From contig NZ_SJOP01000011.1 in assembly GCF_004331415.1 (NCBI RefSeq), positions 1 to 64,000 on the forward strand: DNA of 64,000 nucleotides, in the 5' to 3' direction. This document shows, piece after piece, positions 31,340-40,017 of this stretch. Position numbers and translations under genes: made by a program. The first letter of the stretch is position 1; every line of letters starts with the position of its first letter. Below the pieces are notes generated by a model. It was given only the letters and a program-made list of their open reading frames with translations, ran no database searches and was not told where the DNA came from. The stretch comes from Kosakonia quasisacchari (GTDB lineage Bacteria > Pseudomonadota > Gammaproteobacteria > Enterobacterales > Enterobacteriaceae).

Positions 31340-31396
31340 TTGCCCCAAACACCATGCTATAGTGCTGCTCCCCGATCGCGGAAAACAGGACATAGC

Positions 31397-32485
31397 ATGG
31401 TGTTTCTCAGAGCAGTGCTGATCTTCATCCTTTCGGCAGCAGCCCATGGCGCTGATAGCCTTTCTCCTCCCGCCGGGTTTATGCAACTGCCGGAACCCCA
31501 TCAGCAAACAGCAAAATCGGTTAACTGCCCCACTGCACCTGGCCCTTTTACTGGCGAGCTGGACTTTCACAGCAAATATGAAGGCTCCGACAGCGCGCGT
31601 GCCACGCTCAACCCTGAGGCAGATGCTGCTTTTCGCCAGCAAACAAAACCGATTACCGATATGGAACGCTTTGTCAGCCGCCTGGTCAGCGCCTGGGCGC
31701 AAAGTGGAAACCCATCGAATGTCGCCTGTGTGGTTAACGCCCTGGCGGACTGGGCCAGCGCGGGCGCGTTAACAGGCGATGCGAAAAACCATACCGGCAG
31801 ATCAATGCGTAAATGGGCGCTGGCCACCTTCTCTTCTGCCTGGCTGCAGTTGCAATATTCGCCTCAGCATCCACTGCGCGCGTATCCGGCTCAGCAGGCA
31901 AATATTGAGCGCTGGCTGAGTACACTGGGCGATTTAACGGTTAATGAGTGGCATGATTTACCGCTGGATAAAGTCAATAACCACAGCTACTGGGCGGCCT
32001 GGGCCATTATGGCAACGGCAGTAGTCACTCAGCGGCGCGATCTGTTTACTGACGCGCTGGATATTTACCGCACGGCGATGCAGCAAATTGATCAGGAAGG
32101 TTTTTTACCCAACGAACTGCGCCGTCGTCAGCGGGCGTTTTCTTACCACAATTACGCTATCCAGCCGCTGGTGATGATTGCGCTGTTCGCCCGTGCGAAC
32201 GGTGTCGATCCAAAGGCAGAAAATCACCACGCGCTGCGACGTCTGGGTGACCAGGTGATTAGTGGGTTAGCCGATGCGCAGCCGTTTGCGCAAAAAACGG
32301 GCGTTACGCAGGATGTGTCGTTTTTACAGCACCCGACCAATCTGGCCTGGCTTGAAGGTTGGTGCCAGCTTTATACCTGTGATGATGCGCTGCGCCAGCA
32401 TATTGTGCGCCTGCGCCCGCTGCAAAACACCCGTCTGGGCGGTGATCTGACCCATTTAATGGCCGCCACCGCCAGACAGGAGTAA
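31397..32485 (+). CDS. Alginate-lyase-like (PL5, AlgL-type) periplasmic protein
   Basis: This 362-residue protein has a signal peptide (MVFLRAVLIFILSAAAHG, cleavage near AHG-AD) and an alpha/alpha-barrel resembling family-5 polysaccharide lyases. The active-site pattern of AlgL is visible: N194-N195-H196 (NNHSYWAAW) and an Arg seven residues before Y250 (R243). Expected role: beta-elimination of mannuronate-containing polymer in the periplasm. No alginate synthesis genes lie nearby, so it may act on another uronate polymer or exogenous alginate. The chosen ATG has AGGA 6 bases upstream. It converges with the minus-strand cluster 6 bases away. Confidence 0.8.
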   Translation: MVFLRAVLIFILSAAAHGADSLSPPAGFMQLPEPHQQTAKSVNCPTAPGPFTGELDFHSKYEGSDSARATLNPEADAAFRQQTKPITDMERFVSRLVSAWAQSGNPSNVACVVNALADWASAGALTGDAKNHTGRSMRKWALATFSSAWLQLQYSPQHPLRAYPAQQANIERWLSTLGDLTVNEWHDLPLDKVNNHSYWAAWAIMATAVVTQRRDLFTDALDIYRTAMQQIDQEGFLPNELRRRQRAFSYHNYAIQPLVMIALFARANGVDPKAENHHALRRLGDQVISGLADAQPFAQKTGVTQDVSFLQHPTNLAWLEGWCQLYTCDDALRQHIVRLRPLQNTRLGGDLTHLMAATARQE

Positions 32486-32491
32486 GTGGAG

Positions 32492-33289
32492 TTAGCCTGC
32501 GTTTCCGGCTATCGCCAGATAGTCCGTGTAGAGCTGTGGCGCACCGGAAAACGAAGCGAGCGTGCGCCACTCGTCATACATGCGTTCCGTATCCTGATGC
32601 GCGGCGACAAAGGCCAGTGATTTTTCCGTGGACACATCCAGCCCCGGATGAAAGGCGTTCAGCGACGCCAGACTTTCGATTTCCAGCATCACCGCATACT
32701 GATCGAGGCGATTACCGCCCTGACCTTTCAGCATGTGGAATTTCCAGCCAGGGTAATCCTCGACGCGGTGGATATTATCGGTAATGAATTTTTCGAAGGT
32801 CTGCGGTAGTACACCCGCGCGCAGTGCGAGATTGTGGAAACCAACGACGCGCGACACCGTTTCTTGCCCGGCTTTGGCCTGGTAGTTTGGCCCGTCCGGC
32901 AGGGAGCTATTTCTATTTTCCGCTACCAGGGAGTAGGTGGTGAAAATGGTCGGCAGTTCGGCAAACGTTGCGAAGGTTTTCCATTCAGCAATCAGCGCCA
33001 GTGCCTGCGGGTGCTGCTGCCAGAAGCGTTGCGCTTCGGCGGTCTGTTCTCCACTGACCGTCACATAGCGGGCGTACTGCTCCGCATCTGGTGCTTCGTA
33101 CAGCATCAGATACTCGTTTTCTCGCTCGCCGCGCAAACCTTTAAGCAACGTCCAGCGCCAGCCCGGATACGCCGGGATCTGCGCGCCGCGCTCGCGGGCG
33201 AAGTGTTCAAAATCTCCTGCCGTTACCCCTTTTTTCAGGTTGAGGCCAATGTAATGCACGCTAAAAACAGCATGGGATGGGTTATTCAT
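32492..33289 (-). CDS. Tandem ferredoxin-like repeat protein A (unknown function)
   Basis: This 265-residue soluble protein is made of two homologous halves, about residues 8-122 and 148-262. Each half has the pattern YPGW[RK]xxxLKGxxGxRxxxYxxMxE and ends W[KR]TxAxFxxxPxxxTxY. The fold is probably a ferredoxin-like (dimeric alpha-beta barrel) module duplicated within one chain. I do not recognise a characterised relative. No signal peptide or membrane helix is seen. It is the last gene of the minus-strand cluster, 49 bases after the MFS stop, and has AAGGAGTC before the ATG. It is a paralogue of the product at 34494-35318. Confidence 0.75.
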   Translation of the reverse strand: MNNPSHAVFSVHYIGLNLKKGVTAGDFEHFARERGAQIPAYPGWRWTLLKGLRGERENEYLMLYEAPDAEQYARYVTVSGEQTAEAQRFWQQHPQALALIAEWKTFATFAELPTIFTTYSLVAENRNSSLPDGPNYQAKAGQETVSRVVGFHNLALRAGVLPQTFEKFITDNIHRVEDYPGWKFHMLKGQGGNRLDQYAVMLEIESLASLNAFHPGLDVSTEKSLAFVAAHQDTERMYDEWRTLASFSGAPQLYTDYLAIAGNAG

Positions 33290-33320
33290 AAAGACTCCTT
33301 TCTTCGTACCGTTGACATAA

Positions 33321-33336
33321 CACGGACACGTCCGTG
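33321..33336. promoter_or_regulatory. Perfect palindrome between MFS and repeat-protein A genes
   Basis: Arms CACGGAC and GTCCGTG separated by AC form a 16-bp inverted repeat in the 49-bp gap. It could be an operator for an internal promoter or an intra-operon mRNA hairpin. There is no T run on the minus strand, so simple termination is unlikely. Confidence 0.45.
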
Positions 33337-33338
33337 AA

Positions 33339-34490
33339 TTAGTGGATAATTTTGCGCGCCAGCAGGCTAACCAGCAGCAGGAGCGCAATGCCGGCGCTGA
33401 AAACCGCGCTCAGGCTGTAATGTTGAGCCATGGCGCCAATCAGCGCCGGGCCGCTTAACAACCCCGCATAGCCGAATAACGTGACGGCAGGAAGCGCAAA
33501 GTGCGACGGCACGCCGGGCTGGTTCCCTGCGCCTGAGAAGAGCACCGGTACAATGTTCGCCAGCCCCGCGCCGACCAGCACAAACCCGGCAAGCGAAAGC
33601 ATGGCGTTATGCAATGAAACAATGGTCAGCAACCCCGCAGCAGCACACACACCGCCGAAAATCAGCACACGCACGTTGCCATAAGTGTTAATAAGGCGAT
33701 CGCCATATAGCCGCCCCAGCGCGACGGCAATGGAATAGAGCGTAAAGCCCAAACCCGCCTGCTGCGCTGGCATCTGCCGTTCGCTGTGCAGAAATACGGC
33801 GGACCAGTCCAGCATTGCGCCTTCGATCAGAAAGATAAAAAAACAGACAATGGCGATGAAAAGCACACCCGGATGCGCCAGCGTTCGCAGCAGGCTCCCC
33901 TTCGCGCCACTCTGTTGCGGACGTCTGGCTAATAAATGGCTCGATGCGGCCAGCGCGATAACCAAAATCAGCAGCGCAATCAGCGAAATGGCGTGTCGCG
34001 GCGCGACATTTGCCCACAACAGCACGCTGACGCTTCCGGCACCCGCAATGCAACCCAGACTATAAAAGCTATGAAACCCGGCCATTCTTGTCTGCCCGGA
34101 TTCGCGCTCAACCACCACCGCCTGGCTGTTCATTGACACATCGAGCAGGCCATTCGCCGCGCCGAAAAAGAGCAGAACGCCGCCCATCACGACCGGGGAA
34201 TGGATAAGCAACATCAATGGCAGATCGAGACACAACACCAGTGCGCAGCAGAGGATCACCGCTCGACAGCCAAACCGGTTGATTAAACTGCCACTGAACG
34301 GCATCGCCAGCATTGACCCTGCGGCAATACAAAACAGCAGCAAACCGAGCGCGCCATCATCAACGTGCAACGTTGCTTTCACCAACGGGATTAGCGGTGC
34401 CCATGCGGAGACCGCCAGACCGGCGATGAAAAAAATCGCGCGCGTCGCATGCTGTGCCCCGGTGTTGGTTGTCGGGAATGGATTTGTCAT
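33339..34490 (-). CDS. MFS transporter (FucP/YbjJ-like)
   Basis: This 383-residue major facilitator has twelve predicted helices, starting MTNPFPTTNTGAQHATRAIF. Features of the YbjJ/FucP-type group include SAWAPLIPLVKATLHVDDGALGLLLF, MPFSGSLINRFGCR and ANGLLDVSMNSQAVVVE. It most likely exports or imports the product or substrate of the surrounding cluster. Its start is 3 bases after the repeat-protein B stop, so the two are probably translated from one message. Confidence 0.85.
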   Translation of the reverse strand: MTNPFPTTNTGAQHATRAIFFIAGLAVSAWAPLIPLVKATLHVDDGALGLLLFCIAAGSMLAMPFSGSLINRFGCRAVILCCALVLCLDLPLMLLIHSPVVMGGVLLFFGAANGLLDVSMNSQAVVVERESGQTRMAGFHSFYSLGCIAGAGSVSVLLWANVAPRHAISLIALLILVIALAASSHLLARRPQQSGAKGSLLRTLAHPGVLFIAIVCFFIFLIEGAMLDWSAVFLHSERQMPAQQAGLGFTLYSIAVALGRLYGDRLINTYGNVRVLIFGGVCAAAGLLTIVSLHNAMLSLAGFVLVGAGLANIVPVLFSGAGNQPGVPSHFALPAVTLFGYAGLLSGPALIGAMAQHYSLSAVFSAGIALLLLVSLLARKIIH

Positions 34491-34493
34491 TAC

Positions 34494-35318
34494 CTACACT
34501 CCTTTGCCGTCCCCGCAGCTCTGGCTTTCGGCCACGGCCAGATAATCGGTGTAGATTTGCGGCGAACCGGAGAAGGAAGCGAGCTGTTTCCACTCCTCAT
34601 ACATCTGCTTGGTGTCCCGGTGAGCCTTCGCGAAAATGGCTGCCTGGTCGGTGGCGATATCCGGTTCGGGATAAAAGACATCGAGCGCCGCAAGGCTTGC
34701 TATTTCCATCATCACCACATATTGATCCAACCGGTTGCCGCGCTCGCCTTTCAGCAAGCGGAATTTCCAGTCCGGGTAGTCTTCAATGCGTTGGTAATTT
34801 TCAGCGATAAAGGTCTCGAAGGTCGCAGCCTCGACATCCGGGCGTAGCGCCAGGTTATGAATGCCAATGACTCTGGCTTCCGGTGCTTCTCCCGGCCGTT
34901 CGCGATAGCGCGGCCCATCCGTCACGGTGCTTTTTTTGTTCTCCGCCAGCAGCCGATAATCGGTGTAGAGCGTCGGTAGCGCGCTGAATGTTCCCAATTG
35001 TTGCCATTCGCGCAGCAATGGTTGGGCGTGCGGGCGATCGCGCCAGAACTGACGCGCCAGCTCGGTAAGATTGCCGTCCTCGCGTTGATAACGATCGCGC
35101 ATTCCGGCGTTTTCGATTTCATACAACATCAGAAATTGCCCGGCGCGCTCTCCCCGCAGTCCACGCAGTAACGTCCAGCGCCAGCCGGGATAACAGGGGA
35201 GCAAGCACCCTTTCTCGCGAACAAACTGCTCAAATTGTTCATTGGTGACACCGGCTTCGGTGTCAATTGCGATGTAATAAAGGCTAAAAACCGGTGCGGA
35301 TGCGTCAGTGTGTTTCAT
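34494..35318 (-). CDS. Tandem ferredoxin-like repeat protein B (unknown function)
   Basis: This 274-residue paralogue of protein A has the same two-repeat plan: PCYPGWRWTLLRGLRGER in the first half and DYPDWKFRLLKGERGNRLDQY in the second, with W-x-x-L-[GA]-[ST]-F-S endings. The second repeat matches that of protein A more closely than the first repeats match each other, so the whole two-repeat gene was duplicated. The start overlaps the end of the radical SAM gene by 14 bases; GGAG lies 7 bases before the ATG. Possible roles include a binding scaffold or enzyme for the radical SAM product; none is established. Confidence 0.75.
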   Translation of the reverse strand: MKHTDASAPVFSLYYIAIDTEAGVTNEQFEQFVREKGCLLPCYPGWRWTLLRGLRGERAGQFLMLYEIENAGMRDRYQREDGNLTELARQFWRDRPHAQPLLREWQQLGTFSALPTLYTDYRLLAENKKSTVTDGPRYRERPGEAPEARVIGIHNLALRPDVEAATFETFIAENYQRIEDYPDWKFRLLKGERGNRLDQYVVMMEIASLAALDVFYPEPDIATDQAAIFAKAHRDTKQMYEEWKQLASFSGSPQIYTDYLAVAESQSCGDGKGV

Positions 35319-36744
35319 GCGCAAGCTCCATGGTGAATTGGGTATTAATGATCGCTTCCACTAACGTGACACCGTTTGGCGTGAGCGTGACGTCATCGCC
35401 ATTCACGGTGATGAGCGCTTTTTGCGTTAACGTCTCTAACGCGCGGTGAATCACCGGGTTGTTGAAAAAACTGCGACCATCAAAGCGCTGGCGGAATTCG
35501 CTATCGTTGACCGGACACAGGGTAGAGAGCGCCATTTTGAAGGCGTTAACTTCACGCAGGATGGGTGAAAAACCCCGCTGCGATTCAATGGGTAAGCGCC
35601 CTTCTTCCAGCGACTGGGAGTAGCGCTTGTAATCCGTGATGTTGATAGCCTCCGACTGCCTACATTTCGAACTGCCGCCAAGGCCAATCGCCACTTCCGG
35701 ATACTGCTTATCAAGGTCGGTAATCAACCCTTTCCACTTCTCCGCAGGCTGCATGCGCTGATGGAAATACATGGTGGGATGCTCGATGTAATCATCGGCG
35801 AAGTAGCGCTCTATCAGTTCACGCATCTGGTACTGCTTACCCAGCCCTGGAAAAGCGCTGTTCGCTCCTTTTTTTTGCCACAGGCTCTGGCGCTGCCCCG
35901 ATACACCGGTGCGCTGTTTCATAAATTCCGCCATATGCAGCTTTGTGCAGACGACATGAGAAAGCGCCAGTTCACGGCATTTCTCCATATCAAATTTCAC
36001 ATCATCGACACTTTGCCCAGGCAGGCCGTAGATTAGATCCACGCTTATCCAGTCGAAACCGACTTCGCGCGCGTTTGCTATCGTCTCTTCACAGGTTTCC
36101 GCGCTATGTTTACGTCCGCAGGCCTCGATAAGCTGGTTATTGAACGACTGGACGCCAAAACTGATTTTGCTGAAACCCAGCGTTTTGAGCAGTTGCAGAT
36201 AGGATTTTGTCAGCGTTGCGGGTTCCCCTTCAAAGCGCAACGTAGCGGCAGAAAAATTGAAATTCTGCTGGTAAAACGCAATCAGACGCCGAAGTTCCGC
36301 TTCCGGCAGCAACGACGGTGTGCCGCCGAAAACGTTAAATTCGCCCACTTCTGCGTGGGCAAGCGCGGGCACGTTTTGCAGCCACAATTTGGCTTCCTGA
36401 ATATTTTGATCCACGACCCGGTGAAAAACGGCCCGCGAGGGGGCGCTCTGCGGATTAATGATGATGGTCGGGAACTGGCAGAAATGGCAGCGGTAGCGAC
36501 ACGTTGGAATCGACGCCCAGAGATGGATCTGCGTTGCCTGTTTGATGTCGTGTTCCATCTCCCGGAAAAAGGCATCCTGCGGATGATCTTTGATGTCGCC
36601 AGGGAACACATGGCAACCAAAAGGATCCCGGTAGACATACTCCAGTAAGGTGCGGTTTTCTTGCGCCGCCAGAAAATCGAACACGCGCGGCACCGGGTAG
36701 TGCGGGTCGAGATCGTTCAATGAGTCCAGAAGAGCGTTGTTCAT
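35305..36744 (-). CDS. HemN/HemW-like radical SAM protein
   Basis: This 479-residue radical SAM enzyme has the 4Fe-4S cluster motif CX3CX2C at C82, C86 and C89 (CRYRCHFC). The SAM-binding GGTPS segment (FNVFGGTPSLLPEAE), FSKISFGVQSF and DLIYGLPGQS are diagnostic of the coproporphyrinogen-dehydrogenase-like group. It has a HemN-type C-terminal region with a winged-helix-like end (ITVNGDDVTLTPNG). Unlike HemN and HemW the motif reads CHFC, with Phe rather than Tyr before the last Cys, and the N-terminus is longer. True haem synthesis is unlikely given the context of two glycosyltransferases, an MFS and two repeat proteins. Its start overlaps the GT2 stop by 1 nt. Confidence 0.87.
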   Translation of the reverse strand: MNNALLDSLNDLDPHYPVPRVFDFLAAQENRTLLEYVYRDPFGCHVFPGDIKDHPQDAFFREMEHDIKQATQIHLWASIPTCRYRCHFCQFPTIIINPQSAPSRAVFHRVVDQNIQEAKLWLQNVPALAHAEVGEFNVFGGTPSLLPEAELRRLIAFYQQNFNFSAATLRFEGEPATLTKSYLQLLKTLGFSKISFGVQSFNNQLIEACGRKHSAETCEETIANAREVGFDWISVDLIYGLPGQSVDDVKFDMEKCRELALSHVVCTKLHMAEFMKQRTGVSGQRQSLWQKKGANSAFPGLGKQYQMRELIERYFADDYIEHPTMYFHQRMQPAEKWKGLITDLDKQYPEVAIGLGGSSKCRQSEAINITDYKRYSQSLEEGRLPIESQRGFSPILREVNAFKMALSTLCPVNDSEFRQRFDGRSFFNNPVIHRALETLTQKALITVNGDDVTLTPNGVTLVEAIINTQFTMELAHETH

Positions 36745-38018
36745 CAGAATACGCCCCCGTTGGCAAAGTAGTTATGCGCCATGCCGGACTCGCGATCCTC
36801 ACAGAAATAGCCAACGAAACGCTGGAAATCACTCTCCTTAACCTCGTCAAAACAGGCTGGCAGTGGCGGTGGAAAACCAATATCTTCGCCTATTGCGCGG
36901 CGCATGGCGCTGAAAATTTCGTCGCGAAACTCGAAATAGAGCCGGTAAGCGGGCGTTTTATAGGCGTGGATGGGCGTGAAATCGATAATGCGCGTTTCGT
37001 GTTTGATGGCCTCAATGCGCCGGAACAGACGATCGGCTACCACCGCACCGAAGAAGTCACGTACGGCCTCGCTATCCAACAGTAGGTGCGGGTTGAGCAA
37101 TACCGGCAGCACAATGTTTTTCGGCACGTAATCTTTGATGGAGTAGTGCCAGGCCTGTAATGACTGCGCTGGTGTCGTGTCGCTCAGCGAGATTTGCTGC
37201 CCCCCTTGCGGGCGGACATCTTTCATGATGATGATGCCATCTTGCCCGTAGGCGATACCGGTTATCACTTCCTGCAGAATGGTGTCCACGCGGCGGCTGT
37301 TGATTTCTACATGGGAGTCTCTGGCATACACCGGTTTTCCGCCTGCGGCGATCACCCGGATACCGAAATCCCAGTCGTCAGAAAGGTGCTCGACAAACCG
37401 CCTGTTATTGAGTTGATAAAAAATCTCAATGCCGCCAACTTTGTCGTACATCGCGCGCTCAACGGCAAAACCTTTGCCATCCGGGAAGCCGCCAAACAGC
37501 GAGAATGAGACATCGCGGCAGCGCAGCGTTTTCTGGATCTCCGCAAACAGATTCGGGCGCAGACGGAAGTCGTTTTCGTTGTAGTAGTAATTACAGGTGC
37601 CTAAGTCCCCTGCTTCCTCGATCATTTTTTCAATCAGCGTGTGCAGCCACCAGCTTTCCACGGTGCAGTCCGCATCGGCCGAAACGATATAGTGCTTTCG
37701 GTCTACGCCAAGGCGTTTGTCGCGCGCTTTTGAACGCAGCGATGCGTAGTCCATTCCGCATTTTCGCGCGGAGGAAACACCCTGCGTGATTTCCTTAATG
37801 ATATGAATATCCATTGTCGGATTGAGTTGATGAAAATCATGTATCTGCGCCACTGAATCATCGGTGGAATTATTATCCACCACGATTAGCTCCCAGTTAT
37901 CATGCGTCAGCATGTTGTTACGCGTTCTTTGATTAAGTAATGAGATAAGCACGGAATTAATTCTGTCGCTCTCGTTATAAACGGGTAAAACAATGGAAAC
38001 ATAAACATTGTTACGCAT
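36744..38018 (-). CDS. Family 2 glycosyltransferase
   Basis: This 424-residue GT-A glycosyltransferase starts MRNNVYVSIVLPVYNESDRI. It has the NDP-sugar region VVDNNSTDDSV and the metal-binding segment IVSADADCTVESWW (DAD in place of the usual DDD or DxD). Acidic acceptor-site residues such as EHLSDDWDFGIRV follow. No membrane helix is evident, so it is likely cytosolic or peripheral. GGGAGAG precedes the ATG. It sits between the GT4-like gene (22-base gap) and the radical SAM gene (1-nt overlap). Confidence 0.88.
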   Translation of the reverse strand: MRNNVYVSIVLPVYNESDRINSVLISLLNQRTRNNMLTHDNWELIVVDNNSTDDSVAQIHDFHQLNPTMDIHIIKEITQGVSSARKCGMDYASLRSKARDKRLGVDRKHYIVSADADCTVESWWLHTLIEKMIEEAGDLGTCNYYYNENDFRLRPNLFAEIQKTLRCRDVSFSLFGGFPDGKGFAVERAMYDKVGGIEIFYQLNNRRFVEHLSDDWDFGIRVIAAGGKPVYARDSHVEINSRRVDTILQEVITGIAYGQDGIIIMKDVRPQGGQQISLSDTTPAQSLQAWHYSIKDYVPKNIVLPVLLNPHLLLDSEAVRDFFGAVVADRLFRRIEAIKHETRIIDFTPIHAYKTPAYRLYFEFRDEIFSAMRRAIGEDIGFPPPLPACFDEVKESDFQRFVGYFCEDRESGMAHNYFANGGVF

Positions 38019-38040
38019 ATATACTCTCCCTGAGTATTCA

Positions 38041-39399
38041 TTAAGACTCAATGCTCTTACTGCTAAGTATTTTCTTACCAATAAGAAAGTTTTGATAAGC
38101 CATTTCTGACATTAACGTTTTGTTGGTGATGAGTTTATAAACACTGAGAATAAACTCATCGTCCGGCAAATCATCTTTCTCAGCTGAAATATCCATAATT
38201 GGCGCAAAGAATCCATATTGCCCATAGACTTCGTCATAATATTCGTACCGTGTGGAAATGTAACAGCGTCGATGACTGATCGCTTCACCGATTGGATTTC
38301 CATAACTGTCGTAATCCCACGACGTCAGAAAAGAGACGACATCACACGAGTAATATAAATCTTCAATGGTGTAGGTGTTCATGCCCGGTGGCATATAACC
38401 ATGTTGCAACCAACCAATAAAATGTATGAACGGTTCAGTCTGTAATTTCCTGGATAAGTCAACCAGCGAACGATAACACTCTGGTGCTTCATGGGGATCG
38501 CCTGCGATAACAAGAAATACTCGCCCCTCAAGACCGTGTTGCTGAAAAAGTCGGTTAAGCCTTGATACCAGGTAAATATCACGATCAAGCCGTTTTTGTG
38601 GGATAAGACGCGTGGTTCGGGCAATCAATATATCATTACAACCAATACCAAGGCTGCGTCTCATGTCACTATGGCTTCGCGCCTCGGTAAAATTATAAGC
38701 GTTCTTTTTAACTTTAATTTCAACGACATGGTCACACCACTCTTCAAGTTTCTCTTTCAAATCCTCATTAAGGGTAAAGTACGTTATATAGCGAGATTTT
38801 ATGGGTTTGATAGCATAAGGGTATGGATAAGCACCATACTTCATCACTGTTTTTTCGCTGTTCCACATTAAATCATGGTCGCGCCAGGTAACGAATTGCT
38901 CTAAATCATAGCGTTTTCCATATGCATCGATCGCAATATATAGAGATTTTGTATAAATAATATTTTCCGGAAGCGTACCGTTTTCAACGAAAACAGTGCC
39001 GATATTGAGTTGCTCCCACTGTCGCACGATTTTTTTGGCCAGTTGGCACGCAGTTTTATCAATAACAGACAGTATTCTTTCACGTTCCGTCGATGAAACA
39101 GATATTTTTTGGCTAATCAATACATTATGTGAGTACTCGATAAAACGGGTGTTGTAATCAGGTAGGCTGGTAATGTCATTTATTCGGACAAGTGTAAACC
39201 CACCTTTATATATCGCATTCTCCCATTCATATGGTTTATTGAACTTTCCCTTATCTATTTTGATGTCGTAACCAAGATCAAGATAAGGTTTAATTCCCTT
39301 GTGTACTAACTCTTGTGCCGTTTTGAATGCTTCAACAGTGATACCTGAAAAAGCAACAGCATCAAAAGAAATAAAAATCGCACCATTTCTAACGTCCAT
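38041..39399 (-). CDS. GT4-like glycosyltransferase (AT-rich)
   Basis: This 452-residue protein has a GT-B fold: an N-terminal acceptor half and a C-terminal half with DILIARTTRLIPQKRLDRDIY, LVIAGDPHEAPE, PFIHFIGWLQHGYMP and YSCDVVSFLTSWDYDSYGNPIGEAIS. The last carries the E-containing nucleotide-sugar site of group 1 glycosyltransferases. Base composition is distinctly more AT-rich than the rest of the window, and the codons are unlike those of downstream operon members, which suggests recent acquisition. It is the first gene of the six-gene minus-strand cluster. Confidence 0.82.
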   Translation of the reverse strand: MDVRNGAIFISFDAVAFSGITVEAFKTAQELVHKGIKPYLDLGYDIKIDKGKFNKPYEWENAIYKGGFTLVRINDITSLPDYNTRFIEYSHNVLISQKISVSSTERERILSVIDKTACQLAKKIVRQWEQLNIGTVFVENGTLPENIIYTKSLYIAIDAYGKRYDLEQFVTWRDHDLMWNSEKTVMKYGAYPYPYAIKPIKSRYITYFTLNEDLKEKLEEWCDHVVEIKVKKNAYNFTEARSHSDMRRSLGIGCNDILIARTTRLIPQKRLDRDIYLVSRLNRLFQQHGLEGRVFLVIAGDPHEAPECYRSLVDLSRKLQTEPFIHFIGWLQHGYMPPGMNTYTIEDLYYSCDVVSFLTSWDYDSYGNPIGEAISHRRCYISTRYEYYDEVYGQYGFFAPIMDISAEKDDLPDDEFILSVYKLITNKTLMSEMAYQNFLIGKKILSSKSIES

Positions 39400-39879
39400 G
39401 GAATTACCTCTTTCTCATTACGAAGATATTTTTTAATTATTCCATTGGTGCTAAGAAAAGCATATTACGGCCTGGGATTAAAGAGGTCGACATCGCAATA
39501 TTAAAGATAATCTCGTTTTTTTACTTTTCGTCACACAAAAAAGCGAAATGATGTTTCATCCTTAATATATCACTTTAATTATTGTAACCGTTGAGTAACT
39601 ACGCGATGGCGCTTAAGCTGAAGAATATTCTACTTTAATTGAGGTTGTTCGGAGTATTTACTCGCAAACCCTATGGTCTGCAGGAATTAAATCTGTTAGG
39701 GATGCTCTTATATTTATTGCTATAAAGCCTAAAGGTAACTTTTCTTATTGCACTTTGTGCTGTGATGTCCGAGGATAACAGTTCGGTATGTTTTTTGTAC
39801 CGCGCAATGATGAGATTGAATTTCGCCCGGTCAGTCGCCGGGCTTGTCCTTGAAACATGAACTGGATTAAGGAGTAAGC
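39400..39879. other. 480-bp AT-rich intergenic region, divergent promoters
   Basis: This region separates the glycosyltransferase cluster (leftward) from sra (rightward) and is AT-rich. It holds a CGGTA...TACCG hairpin (39784-39802) and a GCCCGG/CCGGGC hairpin (39825-39843) shortly before sra. On the minus strand an 18-codon ORF (39437-39493, MSTSLIPGRNMLFLAPME) ends 37 bases before the first glycosyltransferase but lacks a convincing ribosome site. No other coding sequence is credible. Confidence 0.55.
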
Positions 39880-40017
39880 ATGAAATCGAACCGTCAGGCA
39901 CGTCATCTAATGGGGCTGGATTACAAAGTGTCGAACACCCGTAAAGTTGTCACGAAAGACAACCAGGAAGAGACGGTGGTCACTCACCGTTCCGGGCGTC
40001 ATCGCCGCGCAGGCTGA
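39880..40017 (+). CDS. sra: Stationary-phase ribosome-associated protein Sra (RpsV/S22)
   Basis: This 45-residue very basic protein starts MKSNRQARHLMGLDYKVSNT and ends GRHRRAG, matching the E. coli Sra/S22 protein closely from memory. It binds the 30S subunit in stationary phase. AAGGAG lies 5 bases before the ATG. It is followed by a strong terminator and then maeA, the same order as in E. coli, which marks the return to conserved chromosome backbone. Confidence 0.95.
   Translation: MKSNRQARHLMGLDYKVSNTRKVVTKDNQEETVVTHRSGRHRRAG

Follow-up and report, generated by a model that had tools for sequence, protein, structure and literature searches.

The closest described relative of the operon considered here lies on the pBPHY02 plasmid of Paraburkholderia phymatum, where Bphy_7707 (BPHY_RS38025), a fusion of two glycosyltransferases, and Bphy_7706 (BPHY_RS38020), a HemN-like radical SAM protein, form the same core as three genes of a six-gene operon of Kosakonia quasisacchari. 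The latter is located on the minus strand of the window, i.e., the whole stretch of 64,000 nucleotides analysed (positions 1 to 64,000 of contig NZ_SJOP01000011.1, in a genome of 5.15 Mb), and is composed of the genes hereafter named GTB and GTA (glycosyltransferases), RSAM (the radical SAM protein, 69% identical to that of P. phymatum), FR1 and FR2 (predicted ferredoxin-like repeat proteins) and MFS (a transporter). The P. phymatum version differs in lacking FR1, MFS, and FR2, and it appears in PMC8305402 as a line of an expression table, in a section that does not study its function. HemN-like radical SAM enzymes of natural-product pathways, such as the C10P cyclopropanase, likewise place a HemN-type domain in a biosynthetic setting, whereas the pairing with two glycosyltransferases seen for RSAM is not mentioned in the opening lines of the abstract describing that enzyme (PMC6050322). 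The ABM-type fused barrels represented by 2pgc, 5f9p, and PenE (9kdp) are like FR1 by predicted fold, but FR1 is only 9-10% identical to them and has no sequence-family match. Trehalose-like sugars are found in validamycin and other pseudodisaccharide pathways; the version of the operon present in Lonsdalea includes GT20 and trehalose-phosphatase homologues, and VldE is among the fold matches of GTB, whereas the window operon has no GT20 gene and such a gene lies near the core only in four Lonsdalea loci. Moreover, the treB-treC trehalose phosphotransferase operon adjoins, or is joined with, parts of the operon in Duffyella, Pseudomonas, and Pantoea, while ordinary trehalose uptake operons are not known to include glycosyltransferase, radical SAM, or FR genes. 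Each component family is known, and no description of their combination was found in titles and abstract starts, most subscription journals being outside the search, so that an earlier description is possible; the works retrieved included the P. phymatum papers and studies of trehalase inhibitors, HemN-like enzymes, and trehalose. The comparison reported here indicates that the six genes are one unit and points, as something close to an even call, to an operon for the synthesis and export of a small sugar-based secondary metabolite, with trehalose or a molecule built on trehalose as the scaffold and with a role in host association.

Profile searches with RSAM, FR, and GTB (E-value thresholds of 1e-80, 1e-10, and 1e-30, respectively) over 198 genomes of the family returned eight genomes each, the identical eight every time, and at these thresholds none of the 198 carried any of the three alone. 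In a nearer draw of genomes, true RSAM, set apart from HemN/HemW-type matches at E below 1e-220, was present in 8 of the 15 genomes of the genus (source genome included) and in 9 of the 58 overall; a near search in Escherichia coli gave no match. A scan of one genome per species by means of two short exact peptide patterns, which is possibly incomplete because it relies on those patterns, yielded 56 loci; the addition of seven plasmid loci and the removal of four Streptomyces loci resulted in a comparison set of 59 loci, in which L006 and L028 are identical DNA, as are L004 and L027. Specifically, 27 loci hold all six genes, 23 the GTB-GTA-RSAM trio only, 8 the trio and FR1, and one lacks FR2; the genuine trio-only loci are 21, since L030 is a contig end in a genome that has FR genes and L081 is a decayed contig of 5 kb. 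GTB and GTA form a single open frame in 31 of the 59 loci, and RSAM and FR1 do so in three Kosakonia loci (L005, L007, and L028); by established practice, both fusions argue for a functional tie between the partners. The RSAM-FR1 fusion was also considered as a general rule and rejected, as it is confined to those three Kosakonia genomes. The single functional unit proposed by the sequence-only reading, made from the window alone, is therefore upheld by the fusions and by the eight shared genomes, and the rarity of joint occurrence that would have spoken against it was not observed. Likewise, the six same-strand genes that it described are intact open reading frames (ORFs), and its spacings are reproduced from the coordinates (from GTB to FR2, a 22-nt gap, a 1-nt overlap, a 14-nt overlap, a 3-nt gap, and a 49-nt gap).

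RSAM contains a Radical_SAM domain (PF04055, 9.4e-22), and the three Cys of its CxxxCxxC motif are invariant in ten aligned RSAM rows, which places it in the radical SAM superfamily. Among the matches listed (25 of 30), its best NCBIfam hits are HemN-type models, and RSAM falls below the cut-off of every model, with 120.4 bits against 324.95 for hemN, 119.5 against 380 for STM4012, 106.6 against 321.4 for HemZ, 105.4 against 205.4 for HemW, and 100.9 against 400 for HutW. The Cys directly following CxxxCxxC in the compared HemN copies is absent from RSAM, as it is from HemW. In a tree that omits L025 and the loci whose best RSAM stretch covers less than 80%, 59 RSAM rows separate from 9 HemN/HemW-type rows with a support of 100, in a quick reconstruction that carries a long-branch warning. 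Orthology with HemN or HemW was rejected on the missed cut-offs and the separate clade, so that a grouping of RSAM with true HemW/HemN orthologues, which the sequence-only reading named as a refuting outcome, was not observed either. A role in anti-phage defence was also tried and rejected: PADLOC gave weak matches to RSAM (PDC-M51A, 32.6 bits; pVip, 22.1 bits) and none to the other five proteins at E 0.001. A search of GTA against phages returned one partial match, 31% identical over 31% of the query.

The protein types assigned in the sequence-only reading agree with the domain calls, with GTB being weak by sequence (Pfam Glycos_transf_1, PF00534, 0.012, below the cut-off) and clear by predicted fold. 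The AlphaFold2 model of GTB (predicted local distance difference test, pLDDT, of 87.9) matches HepE (Z 27.5), BshA (Z 26.9), PimA, and other solved structures at Z 26-27.5, with WaaG and VldE also among the matches, and clearly points to a GT-B fold of the GT4-like type. GTA is a family 2 (GT-A) glycosyltransferase by Pfam Glycos_transf_2 (1.8e-22; 80.5 bits against a cut-off of 23.3). Its last eleven residues, AHNYFANGGVF (window 36744-36779), are identical in 9 of 9 aligned alpha-, beta-, and gammaproteobacterial proteins, which is unusual for a C-terminus. By sequence, neither FR1 nor GTB has a credible relative in the PDB, where the PPR matches to GTB are short.

FR1 and FR2 are paralogues (51% identical) for which neither Pfam nor NCBIfam gives a match above cut-off, an ABM sequence family included. 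In the AlphaFold2 model of FR1 (pLDDT 88.5), two ferredoxin-like domains are fused, and when the window proteins are compared by halves with their relatives, opposite halves match at about 29-37% identity, in line with the duplicated tandem-repeat ferredoxin-like proteins recognized beforehand in the window. The best structural match of the model is 2pgc_A, a metagenome protein (Z 15.3, root-mean-square deviation 2.7, 191 residues aligned), followed by the anthrone oxidase-like 5f9p (Z 12.2), PenE 9kdp (Z 12.0), and sulfur oxygenase reductase (about Z 12). By predicted fold, FR1 would be an ABM-type fused barrel, bearing in mind that a shared fold does not show activity. MFS (MFS_1, 1.4e-22) is absent from the three-gene and four-gene versions of the operon; comparison of the loci indicates that it occurs as a pair with FR2 in Pantoea, and two Pantoea loci have another MFS gene immediately before GTB. 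In Pantoea dispersa, an FR gene is found on plasmids of eight records, and the one record examined (L084, 8809-10792) carries a lone MFS-FR2 pair, 60% and 67% identical, with the biosynthetic trio absent from the 20 kb seen; this pair could be an uptake, immunity, or finishing module.

The putative link with trehalose is not visible from the window alone and emerges from the neighbourhoods of the other loci. In an unbiased clustering of neighbouring ORFs, treB (family 5, 10 loci) is the specific neighbour that recurs most widely beyond the core genes; two larger families were set aside, one (family 3, 17 loci) being an antisense artefact and the other (family 4, 13 loci) consisting of chemotaxis receptors, whose very large family is held together by one shared domain. 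The greedy ORF picker favours long antisense ORFs in GC-rich loci, and because of these artefacts the counts were taken from tblastn coordinates. The trehalose genes searched for near the loci were treB, treC, otsA, otsB, and thuA. On this basis, treB and/or treC are present in 11 of the 59 loci (one of Duffyella, six of Pseudomonas, two of Pantoea, and two of Arsenophonus, one of which is decayed); the full-length copies tested pass the NCBIfam cut-offs, and a shortened Arsenophonus frame passes one of two. In Duffyella, treB-treC end 148 bases before GTB on the same strand, with treR divergent. The 21-kb locus contains the sole treC match of its genome in all six Pseudomonas cases; across 24 genomes searched (L070 and L071 being outside this set), treC has a match in 21 and a single one in 19 of those 21, and since it is mostly single-copy, its chance location in such a stretch of a 5-Mb genome would be about 0.4%. 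Pantoea wallisii has two loci: one with treB-treC-MFS-FR2 on one strand, in which the MFS frame overlaps treC and a divergent LacI-type regulator adjoins, and one with GTB, GTA, a split RSAM, FR1, and another treB; a Pantoea dispersa locus (L071) has the trio and FR1 with convergent treC-treB.

Genes for the synthesis of trehalose take this place in Lonsdalea, where otsB, otsA, a GMC oxidoreductase, a class III aminotransferase, and a sulfotransferase are located directly upstream of GTB in four loci (otsA is split in L065, and the GMC oxidoreductase has a weak pyranose-oxidase match). The GT20 protein of the cluster resembles a divergent OtsA, just under the OtsA cut-off, and is an extra copy, because each of the four genomes has another, better-scoring GT20 gene elsewhere. 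The pairing of an oxidase with an aminotransferase is a known route to sugar amination in aminoglycoside pathways. Lastly, genes for a sugar ABC transporter, for ThuA, and for a Gfo/Idh/MocA protein lie upstream in the two Pseudochrobactrum loci, which are 99% alike in this region. Altogether, trehalose genes are found near the core in 17 of the 59 loci and in six genera (11 tre, 4 ots, and 2 thu). Outside the fetched operon loci, K. sacchari has a second divergent GT20 gene (G235:C35:47025-48326) and Enterobacter sp. Cy-643 has only a low-scoring one (G250:C12:538047-539327); both could be pathway partners located elsewhere in the genome.

Among the carriers are Kosakonia, Duffyella, Pantoea, Ewingella, Serratia, Cedecea, Enterobacter, Lonsdalea, Arsenophonus, Pseudoduganella, and Pseudochrobactrum, Pseudomonas (gingeri, fuscovaginae, entomophila, fragi, flavescens, and others), and, in genera that include nodulating bacteria, Paraburkholderia, Cupriavidus, Sinorhizobium/Ensifer, and Rhizobium strains; the rhizobial distribution likewise cannot be read from the window. 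In lifestyle, the carriers include plant- and mushroom-associated Pseudomonas, insect endosymbionts, nodule symbionts, and endophytes. On the symbiotic plasmid pSYMBR3459, nodU and cysC are located about 9-12 kb from the core; the pSym plasmid of C. necator UYPR2.512 and pBPHY02 are also named or described as symbiotic, and the copies of R. jaguaris and S. garamanticum are on plasmids not named so. The trio stands by itself in each of the 19 rhizobial loci, and searches of 14 whole rhizobial genomes and five whole plasmid records turned up no FR gene. In the RSAM tree, the rhizobial loci fall into two separate clades (15 and 4 rows), as do those of Kosakonia, which points to repeated horizontal transfer. 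The closest named relative of the window RSAM is that of Kosakonia pseudosacchari (91%), with other genomes of the genus at 93-94%. The Kosakonia cowanii copy (L070) has an RSAM 67-68% identical that groups with Cedecea/Enterobacter, and the copy of another genome of the genus (G010) stands at 67%; the operon was therefore probably acquired by Kosakonia at least twice. Among the Arsenophonus copies, those of two endosymbionts (L074 and L081) are decayed, with split frames, and that of Arsenophonus nasoniae (L069) keeps GTB, GTA, RSAM, and FR1 open. More distantly, four Streptomyces loci have an RSAM 39-40% identical; GTB relatives lie near RSAM in both loci tested, L079 and L082 (hhalign E 3.5e-9 and 3.4e-10), and the presence of two TauD-type dioxygenases in L082 and of a Gfo/Idh/MocA-type frame in L079 makes this arrangement look like a natural-product cluster.

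Expression of the core is documented in the P. phymatum version, on which a literature search with both locus tags retrieved two papers only, PMC8305402 and PMC5979394. In bean nodules of the nifA mutant, the expression table of PMC8305402 reports log2 fold changes of -4.98 for Bphy_7707 and -4.07 for Bphy_7706, hence the dependence on NifA, and the same table lists treS, a trehalose gene, at -7.53; in rpoN nodules, the data of PMC5979394 give -3.6 for Bphy_7707. Sigma54-like sites with at least 10 of 11 matches were sought before GTB in 41 of the 59 loci and in the window: of 18 nodulator loci, 5 have such a site, against 0.21 expected by shuffling, and of the 24 others (23 loci and the window) none does, against 0.14 expected. 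All five belong to Sinorhizobium/Ensifer loci of one clade and hence count as one event, and P. phymatum itself has no good site of this kind before GTB. Control of the window operon by NifA and sigma54 was rejected, as the 700 bases upstream of GTB contain no NifA-type or sigma54-like site.

Putting these elements together, trehalose or trehalose 6-phosphate would derive from treB/treC-type uptake, from otsBA, or from the host niche; GTB (retaining, GT4-like) and GTA (inverting, GT2) would add sugars to it or to a derivative; RSAM would introduce a radical-based carbon change on the glycoside; FR1 and FR2, with barrels like those of cofactor-free oxygenases, may perform or assist an oxidation or rearrangement; and MFS would export the product. 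The rhizobial versions stop at the three-enzyme core, so that the core product is probably the common molecule, with FR and MFS serving for finishing, export, or use outside the nodule. The sequence-only proposal of a small glycosylated, radically modified metabolite that is exported or imported fits the strict co-occurrence, the fusions, and the sugar-tailoring neighbours; its other branch, a tetrapyrrole-related modification, is not supported by the properties of RSAM described above. Several observations weigh against the trehalose-based scheme: 42 of the 59 loci have no treB, treC, otsA, otsB, or thuA in the stretch examined, and the 64-kb window has no match to any of them; the link is a post hoc observation, and the 17 loci include many close relatives (six of Pseudomonas, four of Lonsdalea, and two nearly identical ones of Pseudochrobactrum). 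RSAM is split and MFS frameshifted in Pantoea wallisii, and core genes are split in other carriers (e.g., L025, L046, L074, L080, and L081), so that part of the evidence comes from decaying copies. The GTB fold fits GT4 enzymes with many acceptors, TreT being lower in the list (Z about 22), and the fold matches of FR1 extend to barrels that bind haem (HmoB, chlorite dismutase, and HemQ; Z about 8-10). Furthermore, dependence on NifA was observed for the three-gene version and in a different organism, whose nodule trehalose was reported as unchanged in the nifA mutant (PMC8305402).

The absence of trehalose genes from most loci, and from those of Streptomyces, is what the main rival would predict, namely that a small glycoside is made and exported that is not built on trehalose, with the trehalose genes adjoining because the same host niches call for both; this is a real possibility, if clearly less probable than the trehalose-based scheme, given that three unrelated kinds of trehalose genes (tre, ots, and thu-type) recur in six genera, sometimes in apparent single operons, and that the Lonsdalea otsA is an extra copy. 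The treB-treC-MFS-FR2 run of Pantoea wallisii and the lone MFS-FR2 pair on the Pantoea dispersa plasmid could instead reflect the uptake and use of a trehalose glycoside made by the host or by neighbours, with MFS importing it, FR and RSAM opening or rearranging it, and treBC burning the released trehalose; two glycosyltransferases in the core of all 59 loci, an operon with no glycosidase, and rhizobia that keep the core without FR make this improbable. Hardly any better placed is the modification of a surface polysaccharide or lipid-linked glycan by GTB and GTA acting as ordinary cell-envelope glycosyltransferases: envelope synthesis commonly involves GT4 and GT2 enzymes, and HepE, PimA, and WaaG are among the fold matches of GTB, but family scans identify none of the six genes as a flippase, polymerase, or lipid-carrier transferase, and GTB is strictly paired with RSAM and FR. 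Tetrapyrrole or haem chemistry, with RSAM as a HemN-like tetrapyrrole enzyme and FR1/FR2 as haem-binding barrels related to HemQ or HmoB, would account for the HemN-type best matches of RSAM and for the lower fold matches of FR1; it is the least probable of all, since RSAM scores 120 bits where hemN requires 325 and branches separately in the tree, the fold matches that rank higher for FR1 (Z 11-15) are either labelled oxygenase or monooxygenase or have no known function, the rhizobial trio lacks FR, and no haem gene is found among the annotated recurrent neighbour families.

The features of the locus are collected in the table below. Upstream of the operon, an AT-rich gap is followed by a malic enzyme gene on the opposite strand; a plus-strand ORF of 45 aa (39880-40017), which may resemble the ribosome-associated protein Sra, lies between that gene and the operon. 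On the other side, a convergent gene (31340-32485) located 6 bp from the end of FR2 passes the cut-off for mannuronate-specific alginate lyase (NF001467). The flanking genes (neighbour families 33-38) match those of K. pseudosacchari and K. sacchari. The GC content of GTB is 39%, versus 51-58% for the other five genes, and in most other loci, too, no gene of the set has a lower GC content than GTB (e.g., 40 versus 52-60% in L027), with exceptions that include L040, L065, and L072. A single transcript is not evident from sequence signals: promoter-like sites are not above shuffles (5 versus a mean of 8.3), and terminator-like sites are slightly above them (15 versus a mean of 10.2, standard deviation 3.6).

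Table. Features of the Kosakonia quasisacchari operon, in window coordinates and in the order of transcription.
Feature	Coordinates	Strand	Description
AT-rich upstream region	39400..39840	minus	presumed operon promoter region
GTB	38041..39399	minus	operon gene 1; predicted GT-B fold, GT4-like, retaining type expected; 452 aa
GTA	36744..38018	minus	family 2 (GT-A) glycosyltransferase; DAD motif; invariant C-terminal tail; ATG start taken
RSAM	35305..36744	minus	HemN-like radical SAM enzyme; CRYRCHFC motif; 479 aa; clade outside HemN/HemW
FR1	34494..35318	minus	predicted fused two-domain ferredoxin-like (ABM-type) alpha/beta barrel; no Pfam family
MFS	33339..34490	minus	MFS transporter of 383 aa; presumed product exporter
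FR2	32492..33289	minus	FR1 paralogue; ATG start taken

One enzyme core is thus common to nodule symbionts, insect endosymbionts, plant- and mushroom-associated Pseudomonas, and endophytes. A more specific and rather unlikely form of the trehalose-based scheme is that the product is a secreted trehalose mimic, i.e., a pseudo- or amino-trehalose glycoside built by RSAM that inhibits host trehalase or imitates trehalose signalling, with rhizobia having taken up the core at least twice (on symbiosis plasmids in beta-rhizobia) and having placed it under NifA control in at least one case. Were this true, bacteria with trehalose uptake would keep the trehalose of the host for themselves, and nodule bacteria would gain a means to act on plant trehalose metabolism. 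Identification of the product would provide a new host-interaction metabolite and a radical SAM reaction, probably on a sugar, and would put the influence of rhizobia on plant trehalose metabolism to the test.

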